A stretch of DNA of 64,000 bases from the NCBI RefSeq assembly GCF_004802635.2, contig NZ_CP046052.1:186001-250000 (forward strand). Reading direction: 5' to 3'. Positions within the stretch are counted from its first letter, which is position 1; every line of letters begins with the position of its first letter. The notes beneath the pieces are model-generated. The model had not been told where the DNA came from. It did no database searches and saw only the letters and a list, made by a program, of their open reading frames with translations. Shown piece by piece: positions 2,968 to 11,498 of this stretch. A program made the position numbers and the translations under genes. The DNA comes from Methylocystis heyeri. GTDB taxonomy: Bacteria > Pseudomonadota > Alphaproteobacteria > Rhizobiales > Beijerinckiaceae.

Positions 2968-2998
2968 CCCCGCTCGATCTTTTTCGAGCGGGGCTTTT
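2968..2998 (+). terminator. Intrinsic terminator, plus-strand orientation
   Basis: Perfect 9-bp stem CCCCGCTCG (2968-2976) / CGAGCGGGG (2985-2993) with an 8-nt loop, followed by CTTTT. The T-run orientation terminates plus-strand transcription from the 2283 gene or from an RNA in 2667-2967. The hairpin also sits just beyond the stop codon of the minus-strand kinase gene and could protect that transcript's end. Confidence 0.7.
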
Positions 2999-4334
2999 AT
3001 CCGGCGCGGGCGGAGCGCGCAGCTCGCGCGCCGATCTCTTCGAGCGTCGCCGTCACGTCGTCCATCAGGGGCCTGGCGCGTGAATCCGGCTGCACGCAGA
3101 GGGCCTCCAACTCCCGCAGTTTTTCCAGGCCGCCCGCATGTGGCGCGCATTGTTCCAGCAGTTCGCCGAGCAGCAGCCCCCAGGCCCGGACCTCGACTCG
3201 CCGCCATGCCTCGCCCTCCGGGCCATGTGGAAGCGCACAGGCGGCGCCGAAGTCGCTGAGCTTGGCCTTTCCGGTCTCGCCGTCCCACAGCGTATTATGG
3301 GCGTAAAGGTCGCCGTGCATTATGCCCCGCTCATGAAGATGGGCGGCGGCGGCGGCCGTACAGCGCGCGATTTCGAGCGCGGAATCGACGGATAGGCCGA
3401 GCGCCGGATCATAGACGTCGCGGCTGCAGCTCTCGAGGCTGGGCGGACCCGCCAGCACGCGCCAATGTGCGGGAAGCAGCGGCATGACCAGCGCCTCTGC
3501 GCCATCGGGGTGATCCGTGAGCCGCCCGAGCGTCCCGATCAGATTGGGATGATCGCCAGCGGCGAGGCACGCCGCCATCTCGCAGGAGGGTAGGCCGTCG
3601 CTCGTCATGGAGCCTTTGTATAGCTTCAGGGCGACGGCTTCGGCCTCGCAGCCGCCTGGCCTGCTCCAGCGCGCCGAGTGCACCCGGCCCGAAGCGCCTT
3701 CTCCGAGCAGCGCGTCGACTTCGAGCTGCGCCCAGGAAACGAACTGCGCGCCGACCGGCGCAACCGGGCGCTCGCAGGGATTTCCCGCCCAGGATATCCA
3801 CGCGAGACCGGGCAGCGTCGCGAGCCATGGCGGCAGGGTCTCGAAAGCGTTGGAGCTCAGCCTTATGAGTTCGAGGCTTGCAGCCCCCGCCATGCTCTCG
3901 GGAAGGTTCTGGAGCCGATTGCCGGCCAGCATCAGCTTTTGCAGAAGCGGCCGCTCGCCGAGAGATTCCGGAAGGCGCTCGATGCGGTTGTCGGTGAGCG
4001 TCAGCCAGCGCAACCGGGGCGGCAAGGCTTCTGCTGGAACCTCCCGCAATCCGGTGGCGCGAAAACCGATCTGGCTCAATGCCGCGCAGTCTCCCAGCGA
4101 CGAGGGGAGACGCTCGAAAGGATTTCCCGAGCAGAACAGCGCCCGCAGCCTGTGGAGACGCCCCATGTCGTCGGGAAGAGACGTCAGCCCGCCTCCGCTG
4201 AGGTCCAGGACCTCCAGCGTATCGGCGAGCGCGAAAATCTCGCGCGGGAATTCGCAGAGCCCGCCAAGGCGCAGGCGTCGCGCGCCGGCGAGATCGCCAC
4301 GGCGAAGAGAGTCGAGTTCGATGCTGCTGTCCAT
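2997..4334 (-). CDS. Leucine-rich-repeat protein kinase
   Basis: A 445-residue protein with two parts. Residues about 20-190 are leucine-rich repeats of the LxxLxLxxNxLxxLPxxL type (for example LTLTDNRIERLPESL and LMLAGNRLQNLPESM). Residues about 207-430 are a eukaryotic-type Ser/Thr kinase. The kinase has the glycine loop GEGASGRVHSA (211-221), lysine in VALKLYKG, catalytic loop HGDLYAHN, and DFG in LSDFGAA. The Arg of the usual HRD motif is Gly, as in several bacterial kinases. No signal peptide is seen, so it is probably cytoplasmic. The substrate is unknown. The gene stands alone, with convergent or unrelated neighbours. Confidence 0.88.
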   Translation of the reverse strand: MDSSIELDSLRRGDLAGARRLRLGGLCEFPREIFALADTLEVLDLSGGGLTSLPDDMGRLHRLRALFCSGNPFERLPSSLGDCAALSQIGFRATGLREVPAEALPPRLRWLTLTDNRIERLPESLGERPLLQKLMLAGNRLQNLPESMAGAASLELIRLSSNAFETLPPWLATLPGLAWISWAGNPCERPVAPVGAQFVSWAQLEVDALLGEGASGRVHSARWSRPGGCEAEAVALKLYKGSMTSDGLPSCEMAACLAAGDHPNLIGTLGRLTDHPDGAEALVMPLLPAHWRVLAGPPSLESCSRDVYDPALGLSVDSALEIARCTAAAAAHLHERGIMHGDLYAHNTLWDGETGKAKLSDFGAACALPHGPEGEAWRRVEVRAWGLLLGELLEQCAPHAGGLEKLRELEALCVQPDSRARPLMDDVTATLEEIGARAARSARAG

Positions 4335-4442: not shown

Positions 4443-7400
4443 TCAATATTTCGCGAGTTGCGGCGCCGCGCCCCAATCGAAATGATAGTTCAAGCCGGCG
4501 CGAACGACATGGCCGCCCGACCATCCTGCACTGGTGACGTTGGACACATAGAGGAGGGGGCGGCCCGCGACGGCCTGATTGACACCGCCGAGAAGGCCGT
4601 AAAAGCCCTGATTGCCGAGATCGCAATAGAGATATTCGAGCTTGGCGCTCCAATGCGGGTTTATCAGCCACTCTCCGCCGGCGCCGACGGTCCAGCCGAT
4701 CCGCAAGGAGTTGGCGTTCTCATAACCGCCATTCACGCCGAAGGACGCCGAATTCGAAAATTGCCAGATGGAGGCGGCGAGATGCGGCTCGCCATAGGCC
4801 AGTCCGCCGGTGGCGTAGGCGAGCAGGGCCGGCGTGACCAGATAGCCGAAGCGCCCGCGAGCCGTGCCGAGATAAGCGAGGCTTTTCGAGGCGGTCGTCG
4901 TCGTCGTGACGCTTGCGCGGGTGACGGCTTCGTTTGCGGCTCCGAGGGCTGAGCCGGAGGCGTGCGCCGTGGTTCCCTGGAAATCGGCTTCCAGGCCGGC
5001 GACGAGCTTGGGCCGGAACTGCCAATTGTAGCCGATCTGGCCGCCGCCGAGGAATCCCCCCTCGCTCAGAGGGACCACGCTGGCGGCGCTGGAGGCGCTC
5101 GCCCGCCCGAAATAGGTCGCGCTTCGTAGGATTTGGCCGCTCTTTGGATTCTTCGCTCCCGGATCATCGAACGCGTCTCCCGGAACATTATTGAGGCCGT
5201 TGTTGTCGCCGAAGAGTCCGCCGGCGTTCACGCCTGCATAAAAGCCCGTCCAGAAGGGGGCAGGGGACGGTTCCGCGGGAGCCGCCGCCTTGAAAGGCAG
5301 ATCGGCGACCGACTTGTCCGAGAAAGCGAGTTTGAGCTCCGAGCCCCAGACCGCGCCCCATGCCGGGTAGCCATAGATCGTCTCGTAGCGCTTGTTGGTG
5401 ATGTTGCGCCCATAGAAGGTGAGCTTGGCGTCGCCGCCCGAGATGGGGAAGTCGTAAGCGAGATTGGCGTCGACGGTGGCGTAATTGCCCACCTGATGAT
5501 AGGCGCCGTCGGCCGAGTTGAAATTGGACCAGAAGGCGGAAACATAATTCACCGCGACGGTGGCGGTGAATTTGTTCCAGGCCTGGGTGAGGGCGAAGTT
5601 CGCCATCGATCGGGGAATGGTCATCCCGTAGGGCGTGCTTGTCGAGCCGCTCCAGGCTTCGGTCAGCCGGGTATAGCTGGCGCGATAGGAAGTCTTACCG
5701 AGGGGGTTGTCGAGGAACACGCCGGTCGCCACCGCCTCGACGCCCTTGCGCACCGTGTTCGCCTGTGTCCACACCGGTGTCAGCTGGCCGTTGTAGGTGA
5801 TGTAGCGAGACGGCGTTTTGTCGTTGGCGATCTCGGTGTCGAAATAGGTCACCTGGGGCTTGAACCAGCTATAGAGCGGCAGGATGACGGCCGCTTCATA
5901 TTTATCCTGCAACTCGGGCAGCAGGGTCACGCCGTTGTCCGGGATGATGCCCGAGACGTCGCTCTGCTCGGTATGTGAATATCGGCCGCTGAAAGCGACT
6001 TCCCTCAACGGGTCGAATGCGCCGAGATCGAATTCCTTCAAGGGTTTTAGGGTCGCGCCCGCCGCGTAGTTGATCGCGAGCGGAAAGCCGCGGTTATAGA
6101 AGTATCTCGTGGATGAGCCAGAGGCCGCCTGATCGACGCCGATGTAATCATAGTGATCGTCGACCCGGAAGCTGCCGTCCAGAGTCAGGCGATCGGAAAA
6201 CAGCTTCTGCTCGAAATTGCCGTAGCCGCTGAGCGTATCCTCCTTGCGGGCGTAGCCGGCATAGGATGTTTGACCCGTCGGGTTCGACCAATTGATATAT
6301 TGTATGCCGAGCTGCGCGAGGGTTCCGTCCCAGGTGAAGCTGTGCCGCGCGTTGATCTGGCCGGTGTAGCTCTTCTCGTTGTTGACCGTGACGATCCCAT
6401 TGTTGAAGGCGGCGAGGACGTTGTTGTCCTGCGTCTTGGTGTAGGACAGGGTGATCAGGCTGACATTGTGCGCGTCCCAGTTCAAATTCGAGTTGGAGGT
6501 CAGAAAGGTGGCCTCCATCGGCGAATAGGACCACTTCTGTCCGATCAAGCTCGGCGTGTTCTGGCCGAAGGTCGCCTGTTGAAAGCCGTAACGCGTGCTC
6601 TCCTGGAACAGCGTCCAGTTGGTCTCGAGGATGCCGGCGGAAAAGCCGCCTTTGAGCAGGCCAGCGGTCGTGTCGTTCCAGGCATAGAAGTTCGGGGGGC
6701 CTTCATTGCTGCTTTTTTGAATGAAGCCCGAAATGAAAGTCGGGAGCGAGCCCGGCTGCTTATCGAAGACATAGCCGCCATAGGCGCTGCCCAGCACGCC
6801 GCCGTAGGTTTCGACCGCAGTCCTGAATTCCGCCTCGGTATTTTGCGGAATATGGGTGCGGATGACGACGAAGCCGCTGTTGAGCGCGCCGGAGGCCGAG
6901 CCGAAGTCGACGAGCGGCCCGAGCGTCAGCGCCGAGGGGTCGCGGACGATGTCGACCTGATCGACCTGTGACAATGGCAAGGTCTGCATCATCAGACCGG
7001 CGGTCTGCGCGCTCATATAGGCGCCGTCGACGACGAAGCCGAAATTCGAATCGCCGCGGAACTTGAGATTGTTGGGGAATTTTCGCCCCTGATAGGTGAC
7101 GAGGACGCTGGTCGCGTTCTGCAGAAGGCCGAAAATGTTTTGAGGATTGAGGTCCTCGATATCCTGGCGCGTGAAGGTCTCGGTATGAGGGCGGCTGCTC
7201 GGCGCGACGCGCGCCATATTGGCGACGTTGTCGGGCTGAAGATCGGGCCGCGCCTGCTGCGGCGTGAGGAGGCGCGGCGCTCCGTCGGAAGAATTCGAGG
7301 CGCCGTTTTCCGACGATCCGCCGACGTCTATTGCGGGCAGAGACTCTTGCCCTCGCGCGCTTCCTTGCAAAAGCGCAATGGCGGCGAGCGAACAGGCCCC

Positions 7401-7454
7401 CAGAAGGCGCGTTCTCGGTCTGCGCCGCATCGACGGCTGATCGTCCATACCCAT
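4443..7454 (-). CDS. TonB-dependent receptor fused to an Omp25/RopB-type 8-strand porin
   Basis: A 1003-residue outer-membrane protein. After a Sec signal peptide (about residues 9-36) comes a TonB-receptor plug (about 85-210, with LPLSQVDQVDIVRDPSA) and a large beta-barrel. The barrel ends in a typical final strand, SELKLAF, near residue 710. Normally such a protein stops there. Here the frame continues through a short linker (ADLPFKAAAPAEPSPAP) into a second complete barrel from about residue 731. That part has WTGFYAGVNAGG, GGGQIGYNWQF, GLEADFQG, a final-strand-like LNYHFDW, and the usual ...KLEYLYCDLG segment. It is the mature form of Omp25/31-family porins without its own signal peptide. 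GGAGG sits 5 nt before the ATG. It probably imports a metal chelate with the ABC system upstream. Confidence 0.9.
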   Translation of the reverse strand: MGMDDQPSMRRRPRTRLLGACSLAAIALLQGSARGQESLPAIDVGGSSENGASNSSDGAPRLLTPQQARPDLQPDNVANMARVAPSSRPHTETFTRQDIEDLNPQNIFGLLQNATSVLVTYQGRKFPNNLKFRGDSNFGFVVDGAYMSAQTAGLMMQTLPLSQVDQVDIVRDPSALTLGPLVDFGSASGALNSGFVVIRTHIPQNTEAEFRTAVETYGGVLGSAYGGYVFDKQPGSLPTFISGFIQKSSNEGPPNFYAWNDTTAGLLKGGFSAGILETNWTLFQESTRYGFQQATFGQNTPSLIGQKWSYSPMEATFLTSNSNLNWDAHNVSLITLSYTKTQDNNVLAAFNNGIVTVNNEKSYTGQINARHSFTWDGTLAQLGIQYINWSNPTGQTSYAGYARKEDTLSGYGNFEQKLFSDRLTLDGSFRVDDHYDYIGVDQAASGSSTRYFYNRGFPLAINYAAGATLKPLKEFDLGAFDPLREVAFSGRYSHTEQSDVSGIIPDNGVTLLPELQDKYEAAVILPLYSWFKPQVTYFDTEIANDKTPSRYITYNGQLTPVWTQANTVRKGVEAVATGVFLDNPLGKTSYRASYTRLTEAWSGSTSTPYGMTIPRSMANFALTQAWNKFTATVAVNYVSAFWSNFNSADGAYHQVGNYATVDANLAYDFPISGGDAKLTFYGRNITNKRYETIYGYPAWGAVWGSELKLAFSDKSVADLPFKAAAPAEPSPAPFWTGFYAGVNAGGLFGDNNGLNNVPGDAFDDPGAKNPKSGQILRSATYFGRASASSAASVVPLSEGGFLGGGQIGYNWQFRPKLVAGLEADFQGTTAHASGSALGAANEAVTRASVTTTTTASKSLAYLGTARGRFGYLVTPALLAYATGGLAYGEPHLAASIWQFSNSASFGVNGGYENANSLRIGWTVGAGGEWLINPHWSAKLEYLYCDLGNQGFYGLLGGVNQAVAGRPLLYVSNVTSAGWSGGHVVRAGLNYHFDWGAAPQLAKY

Positions 7455-7656: not shown

Positions 7657-8454
7657 TCAGGCCGATGCATGCGAAGCTGGAAAGAGTCGCCTGACGCCGC
7701 GTTCATCATTCACGGTCTCGACGCGTACGCCGTAGATCCGTTCGATCATCGCGCTGGTTACGACCTCCGGCGCCGGCCCGTCCGCCGTTATGCGCCCGCT
7801 TTCAAGTATTGCTACGCGGTCGGCGACGAGAAGGGCGTGTTCGGGATTATGGGTGCTCACCAGAATGCCGCAACCGTCGCGAGCGAGCGCCGAAAGCTGC
7901 GCCAGCATCTTATGCTGATAGCCGTAGTCCAGCCCTGTCATGGGTTCGTCCATGATCAGCATGCGCGCGCCCTGCGCCAGCGCGCGGGCGATGAGCGTCA
8001 ATTGCCTCTCGCCGCCCGAGATTTCCGTATAGCAGCGGTCGGCGAGATGGGTGATGCCGAGCTTTTCCAGAGCGGCGCCGACAGCTTGCCGGTCTTCCCG
8101 GCCTGGGGGCCGGAGCAAGCCGGATTGCGCGATGCGCCCCAAAGCCGCCACGTCCCGCACCCGATAAGGGAAAGGAGCGGCGTGGCTCTGCGGCACATAG
8201 GCGATCGAACGCGCCGTCTCCCGGCGCGAATAGCTCGCGAGTTTCCTTCCGTCGAGCTCGACGGCGCCGCGCTCCGGCTTCAGAAAACCGAGCAGTAGGC
8301 GGAAGAGAGTGCTTTTGCCGGCGCCGTTGGCGCCCAGCAGCGCGATGATTTCGCCTTCCCGCAGCGTGAGGCTCGCGCCCGAGAGAATGGGACGTTCGCC
8401 GCGGCTGAAAAAGAGGTCGCGGCCCTCCAGGCGACGGCGCGAGTCGCGCGTCAT
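7657..8454 (-). CDS. ABC transporter ATP-binding protein (FepC/BtuD type)
   Basis: A 265-residue ABC ATPase of the iron-siderophore/haem/cobalamin importer class. Visible motifs are Walker A GANGAGKST, Q-loop YVPQSH, signature ISGGERQ, Walker B MLIMDEP with D-loop TGLD, and switch His in STHNPEH. The ATG overlaps the permease stop (ATGA at 8451-8454), so translation is coupled. It would energise uptake through the 8451-9458 permease. The substrate cannot be fixed from the ATPase alone. Confidence 0.94.
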   Translation of the reverse strand: MTRDSRRRLEGRDLFFSRGERPILSGASLTLREGEIIALLGANGAGKSTLFRLLLGFLKPERGAVELDGRKLASYSRRETARSIAYVPQSHAAPFPYRVRDVAALGRIAQSGLLRPPGREDRQAVGAALEKLGITHLADRCYTEISGGERQLTLIARALAQGARMLIMDEPMTGLDYGYQHKMLAQLSALARDGCGILVSTHNPEHALLVADRVAILESGRITADGPAPEVVTSAMIERIYGVRVETVNDERGVRRLFPASHASA

Positions 8455-9458
8455 AGCCACTCCCGCCGCGCATGACGAAGCACTGCGACAAAGGCCGGAA
8501 TGCCGAAGAGTTCGGTGACGACGCCGATGGGAATCTCCGCGTGCGCAACGACCCGCGCAATGCAATCGGCGAGGATCATGAAGATGGCGCCGAGCATCGC
8601 GCTTGCGGGAAGCAGGCGGCTGTTGAGCGGCCCGAGCGCCAGCCGCGCGAAATGCGGCACGATGAGCCCAACCCAGCCGATCATGCCGGCCAGCGCCACG
8701 GACAGCGAGGAGATCAGGGTCGCGGCGGCGATCACGCCGTAGCGCACGCCTTCCACCGGAACCCCGAGAGAGCGCGCCTCGTCGTCGCCCATGGACATGG
8801 CGTCGAGCGCCCGGCCGAGCAGGACCAGACATGCGACGCCCATTAGTATTGGCCCTGCCGCAAGCGCGGCGTGGGGAAGGTTGACGCTGGAAAAGCTGCC
8901 CATGAGCCAGTAGACGATGGCCGGCAACTGATCGTTGGGGTCCGCCGTATATTTGACGATCGAGAGCATCGAAGTGAACAAGGCTCCCGAGATCATGCCG
9001 CCGAGCACGAGCATTACGGTCGAAGCCGAGCCGAACAGATTGGCGATGACCGCTCCGGCGCCGACCGCGGCGAGGCCCATGACGAAAGCCAGGATCTGCA
9101 CGAGCGCGCCGTTGCCGAACCAAAGAATGCCCAAAGCGGCGCCGAAGCTCGCCCCGCCGAGCACGCCCAGAATTCCCGGCGAGACGAGAGGATTGCGAAA
9201 CACAGCCTGAAACGCGGCGCCCGAGGTCGCGAGCGCCGCTCCTACGAGGCCCGCCGCGAGCACGCGCGGAAGGCGGATCTCGACGATGACATTGTGCAGC
9301 AGATCGTATCGTGCGGGCTCCATTGCCGTCCAGCCGAGCGCGGCCCAGCCGAAGTCCGCGAGATCTGAAAAATGCAGGGGGTAACGCCCGAGCGTAAGCG
9401 CGAAGCAGGCCGTCATGATGAGCGCCGGCGGCAGCGTGAGCAGCGAAACGCCCCGCAC
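8451..9458 (-). CDS. FecCD-family ABC transporter permease
   Basis: A 335-residue inner-membrane permease of the FecCD/BtuC family with many hydrophobic helices. Family signatures include LPRVLAAGLVGAALATSGAAFQAVFRNPLVSPGILG (quoted as LPRVLAAGLVGAAL and FRNPLVSPGILG), GMIGWVGLIVPHFARL and a C-terminal cytoplasmic loop. I place the start at GTG 9458, one base after the binding-protein stop. The frame is open further upstream, but that part overlaps the preceding gene and has no membrane character. It forms the channel for the binding protein and ATPase encoded on either side. Confidence 0.92.
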   Translation of the reverse strand: MRGVSLLTLPPALIMTACFALTLGRYPLHFSDLADFGWAALGWTAMEPARYDLLHNVIVEIRLPRVLAAGLVGAALATSGAAFQAVFRNPLVSPGILGVLGGASFGAALGILWFGNGALVQILAFVMGLAAVGAGAVIANLFGSASTVMLVLGGMISGALFTSMLSIVKYTADPNDQLPAIVYWLMGSFSSVNLPHAALAAGPILMGVACLVLLGRALDAMSMGDDEARSLGVPVEGVRYGVIAAATLISSLSVALAGMIGWVGLIVPHFARLALGPLNSRLLPASAMLGAIFMILADCIARVVAHAEIPIGVVTELFGIPAFVAVLRHARREWL

Positions 9459-9459
9459 T

Positions 9460-10482
9460 TTAATTGAAGAGCCTGGCGAAATCCGCGTCGTCGATCTCGA
9501 CGCCGAGGAACAGCCGGTAGAATTTCTTGGTCTCGTCCTTGAGGTCGAGGGGATAGCGAGTGGGATAGAAGGCGTTGGCGAGCCATTGGATTCCAAGAGC
9601 GCGCATGAAGCTCGGCGGGCGATCGAGCCAGTTGAACGGCGCGCGAGGAATGGCGAGAATGCGTCGCTCCTGGACCGCCTTCACATTGCGCCAGCCTTCG
9701 GTTCCAGTTACCGAAGACGCAAAGCCGTGATCCTGCGACAGGATCAGATCCGGGCGCAGCGCGATGATCTGCTCCAGGCCTATTTTTTCCATGCCCATAT
9801 GGGTCGCCTGCTCGCAATGATAGACATTGTCGGCTCCGGCGAGAATGATGGGCTCGGCGTGAAAGCTCTTGTCGCAATCGGTTGCGAGCCCGTCCGCGCT
9901 TTCCGCGTAATAGACCCGCAGCCGTTGCTGCGCCGGAATGTCGGCCACGGCTTTTTGCACGCGCGCCAGAGCGCCATCTATATAGGCCGCGAGCTCGTCG
10001 CCTTTCGCCTTGCGGTCGAACAGCTCCCCGAGAAACCGGAAGGATTGCGCATATTGAGCGAGCGTGTCGAGCTTTATGAAGACGACCGGCAGCTTGATTC
10101 GCGCAAAGCTTTCTTCAGTTTTGGAATTATCGCCGAGCCTGTCCGCCCAGGCGATCACGATGTCCGGATGCTGCGCCAGGATTTCCTCCGGATTGAGCTG
10201 GCGTCCGCCGCCGGACTGGCTGCCGAGCGCGGGCAGGTCGCGCGCTTCCTTGCGGATGAGGCGCTTGTCGTCTCCCTTCATCGGCGTGTTCAAGCCGATC
10301 AGCAGTTCAGGAGCCAGGGCGTAGAGCATCAGGGTCGGAGGCGGACCCGAGCCATAGACGCGTTCGATCTTCGCCGGAATGGTGACGCGGCGCCCGATCA
10401 TGTCGACGATTTCGCGGGTGTCGCCCGCAAGGGCGGGCGCGATCGCGGCGAGGCAGAAGATGAAAAAGGCGAGCAGTCGCAT
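9460..10482 (-). CDS. Periplasmic metal-chelate-binding protein (FecB/BtuF-like)
   Basis: A 340-residue periplasmic binding protein with a short signal peptide (MRLLAFFIFCLAAIAPALAG). It has the helical-backbone substrate-binding protein layout: DMIGRRVTIPAKIERVYG at the start of lobe 1, HPDIVIAW, and lobe 2 with LRPDLILSQDHG. It captures a siderophore, haem or cobalamin-like ligand for the FecCD permease. A TTG at 10488 (overlapping the previous stop as TTGA) is an alternative start two codons earlier. The ligand is unknown. Confidence 0.88.
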   Translation of the reverse strand: MRLLAFFIFCLAAIAPALAGDTREIVDMIGRRVTIPAKIERVYGSGPPPTLMLYALAPELLIGLNTPMKGDDKRLIRKEARDLPALGSQSGGGRQLNPEEILAQHPDIVIAWADRLGDNSKTEESFARIKLPVVFIKLDTLAQYAQSFRFLGELFDRKAKGDELAAYIDGALARVQKAVADIPAQQRLRVYYAESADGLATDCDKSFHAEPIILAGADNVYHCEQATHMGMEKIGLEQIIALRPDLILSQDHGFASSVTGTEGWRNVKAVQERRILAIPRAPFNWLDRPPSFMRALGIQWLANAFYPTRYPLDLKDETKKFYRLFLGVEIDDADFARLFN

Positions 10483-10484
10483 AA

Positions 10485-11498
10485 TCAAGACGCGATCTCC
10501 AGGGGCTTGGAAGCGGACAGGGCTTCGGCGATGCGCGGACGGATGATGGTCGCAAAGTCGTCGAGGCTGCGCAGCGCGTTGGCCTCGTTCGCGGTTGTCG
10601 GCTTCAGCAGCAGCGAGCCGATATTCACGCGCTCGTGAATGGCGAGGATCTTTTCGGCCACATCGTCGTAACTGCCGATCAGCGAACGCTCGAGCATCTC
10701 GGCAGGATCGAAGGCCGCCGCCGGACCCGGCCCGTTGGCGAGGAATATGCCGCGCATGCGCTCGGCGAAACGCTGAATGAACGGAACCGCCTCGTCGAGC
10801 GCCTGCTGGCGCGTCGGGGCCGCGTAGTAGAAGCGCGCCAGTGCAAGCCGCGGATCGGAGCCGGGGGCGGCCTGCCGATAGGCGTCGACCGACTGGGCCA
10901 CGCGCGCGAGCGGAAAGGGGGATGCGGCCATGATGCCGAAACCGTTCCGCGCTGCATATTCGATCGCGTCTGGCGTTGCGGTGGCGATCCAGGTCGGGAT
11001 GGGCTTTTGCAACGGCTTTGGGGTCAGCGTCACCCCGTCGGCCTGATAATGGGCGCCGGCGAAGCTGACGGTGTCCTCGTAAAGCAGGCGGTTGACGAGT
11101 TCCAGCGCTTCGATCGTCAGCTCCCGCGAGACGTCCTTGCTCGCGTTGAAGTGCCGGTTCTGCAGATCGAAAGGACCGCCCTTGGCGACTCCGAAATCAA
11201 AGCGCCCGTTCGAGAGCACGTCGATCGTGGCCACGTCTTCCGCGACCTGGATCGGATTGCGGAAAGGCAGCAGCACGGCGGCCGAACCGAGGCGGATGCG
11301 GCTTGTGACGCCGGCGAGATAGGCCAGTAGAGCCAGGATCGAGGGGCTCGCCGCGTCCGGGTTGAAATGGTGTTCCGCAACCCAGGCTTCTTCGAAACCC
11401 AAAGCCTCGGCGTGTAGAATCAGCCGGGTCTGGTCGTCGAAACACTGTTTGTAGTTCCGCGTGGGATTCTCGTAAGTGCAGAATATCCCGAAGCGCAT
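10485..11498 (-). CDS. Luciferase-like flavin-dependent monooxygenase
   Basis: A 337-residue LLM-class flavin-dependent oxidoreductase. It has the family N-terminus MRFGIF, EEAWVAEHHF, the strand GSAAVLLPFRNPIQVAEDVATIDVLSNGRFDFGVAKG (start GSAAVLLPFRNP), and the C-terminal GSYDDVAEKI. Such enzymes use FMNH2 and O2 to oxidise small organic substrates. It is the first gene of the minus-strand transport operon, and its stop overlaps the binding-protein start region. That context suggests it modifies or breaks down the imported chelate or its ligand, which is inference. The real substrate is unknown. Confidence 0.88.
   Translation of the reverse strand: MRFGIFCTYENPTRNYKQCFDDQTRLILHAEALGFEEAWVAEHHFNPDAASPSILALLAYLAGVTSRIRLGSAAVLLPFRNPIQVAEDVATIDVLSNGRFDFGVAKGGPFDLQNRHFNASKDVSRELTIEALELVNRLLYEDTVSFAGAHYQADGVTLTPKPLQKPIPTWIATATPDAIEYAARNGFGIMAASPFPLARVAQSVDAYRQAAPGSDPRLALARFYYAAPTRQQALDEAVPFIQRFAERMRGIFLANGPGPAAAFDPAEMLERSLIGSYDDVAEKILAIHERVNIGSLLLKPTTANEANALRSLDDFATIIRPRIAEALSASKPLEIAS

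Follow-up and report, generated by a model that had tools for sequence, protein, structure and literature searches.

BAM is usually described as recognizing a last-strand signal that lies at or near the C-terminus of a chain. In the multi-barrel outer-membrane proteins treated by Solan and colleagues, combinations with 8-strand barrels reportedly prevail and are said to arise by lineage-specific fusion. As far as the available accounts describe them, these proteins contain, like the protein described here, at least two complete barrels per chain (Solan et al. 2021, doi 10.1073/pnas.2104059118, cited in PMC9603273; described in PMC11494523 and PMC8592465). The best-studied multi-barrel protein is GfcD/YjbH of Escherichia coli, for which polysaccharide export has been proposed and for which limited proteolysis fits two domains (PMC8592465, PMC11494523). 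GfcD/YjbH resembles our protein in having two predicted barrels per chain; by contrast, its barrels have 12 and 13 strands, a periplasmic domain lies between them, and there is no receptor plug. A second point of comparison is provided by the free Omp25/Omp31 proteins of Hyphomicrobiales, which belong to the same 8-strand family (PF13505) as the fused copy described here but come with a signal peptide of their own and, in most cases, an Ala-Asp start of the mature protein, both of which the fused copy lacks at its own end, the motif being internal. Free Omp25 of Brucella and related proteins of Agrobacterium are attached to peptidoglycan via this N-terminal Ala-Asp (PMC10787603, PMC12729407). 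Literature searches, with the contents of Solan et al. 2021 outside their scope, found no description of a receptor-Omp25 fusion. Multi-barrel proteins as such are known; the present case adds a host that is a receptor, a fusion that is conserved while sister receptors are unfused, and evidence that a single lineage of bacteria has reused one Omp25 module repeatedly.

The window analyzed here (64,000 nucleotides of Methylocystis heyeri, contig NZ_CP046052.1, positions 186,001 to 250,000) contains, on its minus strand, a single uninterrupted frame of 1003 amino acids (4443-7454) that the initial annotation described as a TonB-dependent receptor fused to a complete Omp25-type porin barrel. The ORF check, Pfam and the AlphaFold2 model agree on two complete barrels in one frame, an arrangement that is kept in an orthologue from another genus, and the protein fits the multi-barrel outer-membrane protein kind, with both barrels being predicted. 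In order along the chain, and all on the minus strand, sequence and hydropathy predict a signal peptide (approximately residues 1-35, ...ACSLAAIALLQGSARG; 7350-7454), near the mature N-terminus the segment ESLPAIDVGG is TonB-box-like as judged by eye only, and Pfam identifies a TonB plug domain (Plug, PF07715; residues 91-179; 6918-7184; E 1.1e-9, 39.2 bits versus a cut-off of 23.9). AlphaFold2 and Foldseek place the receptor barrel, with approximately 22 predicted strands, at residues ~194-711 (5322-6875); PF00593 gave no score on the protein in the Pfam search. The Omp25-like 8-strand barrel (residues 734-1003; 4446-5255), supported by Pfam, models and Foldseek, is matched by OMP_b-brl (PF13505; residues 723-948; E 1.8e-8, 35.2 bits versus a curated cut-off of 28.7), and its terminal strand and β-signal, VRAGLNYHF (residues 984-992; 4479-4505), is followed by a short ...AKY tail. 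An 8-strand Omp25-like barrel is thus predicted as first proposed, but "porin" was a loose word for it; 8-strand barrels of the Omp25/OmpA type are not classical porins.

The full-chain AlphaFold2 model, computed from a 44-row alignment, consists of a receptor barrel (approximately 22 strands to residue 712), a disordered linker (low confidence over residues 714-728) and an 8-strand barrel (eight long strands over residues 737-991); its confidence is moderate (mean pLDDT 70.6, pTM 0.58) because just seven rows cover the receptor. Modeled alone, the small barrel was again an 8-strand barrel, with a mean pLDDT of 92.4. Foldseek matched the receptor model to BtuB, PirA and PfeA (E about 1e-18) and found OmpA as the PDB fold nearest to the small barrel, but with low TM-scores (0.37/0.57); PDB sequence searches with either half found nothing.

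SELKLAF (residues 705-711; nucleotides 5342-5322), which had been read as a normal terminal strand of the receptor half, indeed falls where five unfused homologues stop (...KVAF, ...VISF and ...SVKY, each followed by a stop codon), and appears to be the receptor's former C-terminal β-signal. The frame continues into a linker (residues 712-733; 5256-5321) that contains V-ADLP-FKAAAPAEPSPAP and of which the segment V-ADLP-FKAAAP resembles the mature starts of free Omp25 copies of the same genome (e.g., A-ADLPSRKAPP); the proposal that the linker derives from an Omp25 mature N-terminus consequently holds, with ADLPFK (residues 717-722; 5289-5306) as an internal relic of the free Ala-Asp start. 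An internal start that would yield a separately exported small barrel was considered and rejected as unlikely, because no Met codon occurs past residue 690 of the frame and hydropathy around the junction identified no hydrophobic or signal-peptide-like stretch. The linker is flexible and Ala/Pro-rich, which would suit a transport precursor that a periplasmic cut separates into two barrels; however, it carries no known processing signal and is poorly conserved between the window protein and the orthologue (41% identity over 17 codons), and we consider processing of this kind most improbable. The small barrel might instead act as a peptidoglycan anchor by which the receptor is held at the cell wall, given that Omp25-type proteins are linked by L,D-transpeptidases via the N-terminal Ala-Asp (PMC10787603, PMC12729407) and that, by a loose pattern, an Ala-Asp-type motif is present in 92 of the 103 Omp25 ORFs whose N-terminal end is free. 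In the fusions, however, the reported attachment point is gone, and such a role would be hard to keep because the start of the Omp25 part lies within the chain; of the motif, the window protein retains a relic and the orthologue (VPLP) has lost it, leaving the anchor with a low probability.

The orthologue, from a genome of another genus in the same family (G161), carries the same in-frame fusion in 1002 amino acids; compared with the window protein, its receptor is 69% and its small barrel 57% identical. Pairwise NG86 estimates of dN/dS, which are rough given the high dS, were 0.219/0.874 for the receptor and 0.307/1.074 (~0.29) for the Omp25 half, and these comparisons indicate that both halves are clearly constrained by purifying selection. 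As the same fusion is found under purifying selection in a second genus, an assembly error, a frameshift or a decaying gene can be ruled out, and the earlier concern about an assembly artefact is thereby removed. The Omp25 half of the orthologue had no Pfam match; it matches the Omp25 profile built in this analysis (3.5e-75). In the search for homologues, the window receptor family was found in 5 of 199 genomes of the bacterial family and was fused in two of them (the window genome and G161), with two more, unfused, members among 397 genomes of the order; no further members were found among 385 genomes of the class, and the receptor family is absent from another 38 genomes of the genus.

Judged by its gene neighborhood, the window receptor is an ordinary TonB-dependent one that belongs to a FecCD-type operon for the uptake of metal chelates. 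On the minus strand are encoded an ABC-transporter ATPase (FecE/HmuV-like; 7657-9123, with the true start inside this over-long ORF), a FecCD-type permease (8451-9596), a periplasmic metal-chelate binding protein (Peripla_BP_2; 9460-10488) and, in the same gene row, an LLM-class flavin monooxygenase (10485-11498). Unfused receptors in two genomes (G100 and G270) have the same LLM, binding-protein and FecCD neighbors, and those in two others (G003 and G045) are accompanied by the binding protein alone; as unfused receptors share these operon neighbors, the add-on barrel is evidently not needed for such operons. The LLM-class monooxygenase is conserved next to unfused receptors as well; the chelator may be what it acts on. 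The gene immediately downstream of the receptor (2997-4334, minus strand) encodes a 445-amino-acid fusion of leucine-rich repeats and a protein-kinase domain.

Fusion of Omp25 to another barrel recurs well beyond this locus, also in methane-oxidizing relatives. The Omp25 family has approximately 20 copies in the window genome, where eight chains, the window protein included, join Omp25 to another barrel. These comprise a second, unrelated receptor followed by Omp25 (L097; L097:3653-6931, minus strand, 1092 amino acids), two copies of an unassigned barrel followed by Omp25 (L098 and L102), Omp25-Omp25 (L099), Omp25 followed by an unassigned barrel (L103), Omp25-OprB (L100) and Omp25-BBP2 (L101), so that the module occurs in both orders, first or last. 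Receptors of the L097 family are common in the bacterial family, most of them without a fusion, but are joined to Omp25 in the congeners G576, G586 and G151 (L144, L145 and L122); with its many unfused relatives, this receptor family represents a good source of fused/unfused pairs. The L098-type barrel is likewise mostly unfused; it is fused in the window genome and, to judge from the length of the frame and an Omp25 match next to it, also in G161. The combination of a receptor followed by OMP_b-brl also recurs in relatives. A Methylocystis bryophila plasmid protein annotated as a TonB-dependent siderophore receptor (WP_102938231.1; L136:660-5543, plus strand) consists, as in the window, of a receptor and then Omp25-type barrels, but differs in its siderophore receptor family, its three Omp25 copies and its length of 1627 amino acids. 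An Ancylobacter polymorphus plasmid protein annotated as a TonB-dependent receptor (WP_244451181.1) shares Plug, receptor barrel and one C-terminal OMP_b-brl (Omp25) domain with the window protein; unlike the latter, it has an STN domain, is haem-receptor-like, and adjoins genes for a sigma factor and FecR as well as fhuF and fhuB. An alginate exporter is joined to one Omp25 on a plasmid of Methylosinus trichosporium OB3b, and the three plasmid proteins carry generic annotation only; an alginate exporter with Omp25 is also found in G592. Finally, in G576 a single 1567-amino-acid frame (L143:1199-5899, plus strand) contains POTRA_2, ShlB, a barrel stretch without assignment and two copies of Omp25, and this TpsB-type (two-partner-secretion) chain probably holds four barrels.

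A few Omp25 records call for separate mention. One copy (L009, G000:C1:3368138-3368986) has one in-frame TAG within the match and is possibly damaged. Two records with Omp25-type genes bear the titles Bacillus subtilis SK6B4 (L043) and Frankia sp. RB7 (L074); they are probably mislabelled or contaminated, because such hosts should have no such outer membrane. A metagenome bin of Legionellaceae holds an Omp25 resembling those of Methylocystis (L038), which reflects either transfer or a binning error.

This diversity of hosts bears directly on what the small barrel does. The initial annotation had raised the possibility of a specificity lid, or accessory pore, in which the loops of the small barrel help to determine which substrates the receptor accepts, and the physical linkage to the receptor is compatible with this, as are the long loops that the Omp25 half is expected to expose outside the cell. 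Against it, the module is also present on functionally unrelated transporters, exporters included, so that the substrates of its hosts are unrelated, and some receptors that lack the fusion have operon neighbors of the same kinds; we regard a lid as quite improbable. As Omp25 is found on receptors, exporters and a TpsB-type protein, its simplest role is generic and hardly substrate-specific, and we deduce from the diversity of hosts that a generic partner role for the small barrel is the most likely one.

With regard to origin, a quick tree built from 108 Omp25 domains requires the fused label to change 11 times, and supported branches force at least four of these changes; the Omp25 domains of the window and G161 form a strongly supported sister pair. 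Under a better model with fewer rows, the window, G161 and L097 domains group without support (72), and a constraint that keeps the domain of L097 with that of L122 is weakly rejected (p-AU 0.029); long branches weaken these domain trees. A single origin of all fusions was rejected on the basis of the forced label changes and the weak rejection of a joint L097 and L122 origin. The domain phylogenies suggest that several independent Omp25 fusions are likely, and that the window, G161 and L097 fusions may share one origin. The suggestion that the window protein was born by fusion of two adjacent genes was not borne out, as no Omp25 gene adjoins unfused receptors at seven loci; instead, the presence of the module on many unrelated hosts points to a copy inserted from the large Omp25 family.

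The same pattern could arise if the approximately 20 Omp25 copies often recombine in frame onto barrel genes and the extra barrel is harmless and does nothing special, i.e., if the fusions are near-neutral. The large size of the family, the many independent fusions to unrelated hosts in both orders, and the mostly unfused state of same-family receptors are in keeping with such a process; by contrast, the Omp25 half has retained 57% identity across two genera at a dN/dS of about 0.29, and fusions of the L097 type are present in other species of the genus (L144 and L145). A near-neutral origin strikes us as rather doubtful, and a fusion that began in this way may afterwards have been held by structural dependence.

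We hold it somewhat better than evenly probable that the gene product is secreted as one chain carrying two barrels of the outer membrane, of which the small one is a generic membrane-embedded partner. An Omp25-family copy would have been joined in frame behind the last strand of the receptor, losing its own signal peptide. Receptor and small barrel would then fold side by side in the outer membrane, tied by a flexible periplasmic linker of approximately 20 residues, an arrangement that is expected because the receptor ends, and the Omp25 barrel begins, on the periplasmic side. BAM would use an internal β-signal (SELKLAF) as well as a near-terminal one (GLNYHF), and the small barrel would serve packing, clustering or contact with the surface or LPS rather than substrate recognition. 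The frame, the domains, the conservation of the fusion, purifying selection and the recurrence on unrelated hosts are direct observations, whereas the barrels and the linker are model predictions; that both barrels would be inserted in the membrane, how BAM would handle them and what the small one does are points that we infer. A broader proposal, which we put forward only tentatively, is that Omp25 of Methylocystaceae is a promiscuous membrane-embedded module, repeatedly fused to receptors, exporters and a TpsB transporter of the Omp85 superfamily, with up to four barrels per chain, that would confer a shared property such as clustering or outer-membrane placement and escape the peptidoglycan attachment of free Omp25, with BAM routinely assembling chains that have internal β-signals.

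Tandem barrels raise the question of how BAM treats an internal β-signal, and this question is testable, as natural chains of two to four barrels and closely related unfused receptors represent ready-made pairs for tests of internal signals. That one small barrel has been repeatedly added to many transporters suggests a shared, as yet unexplained, function of Omp25-type proteins.
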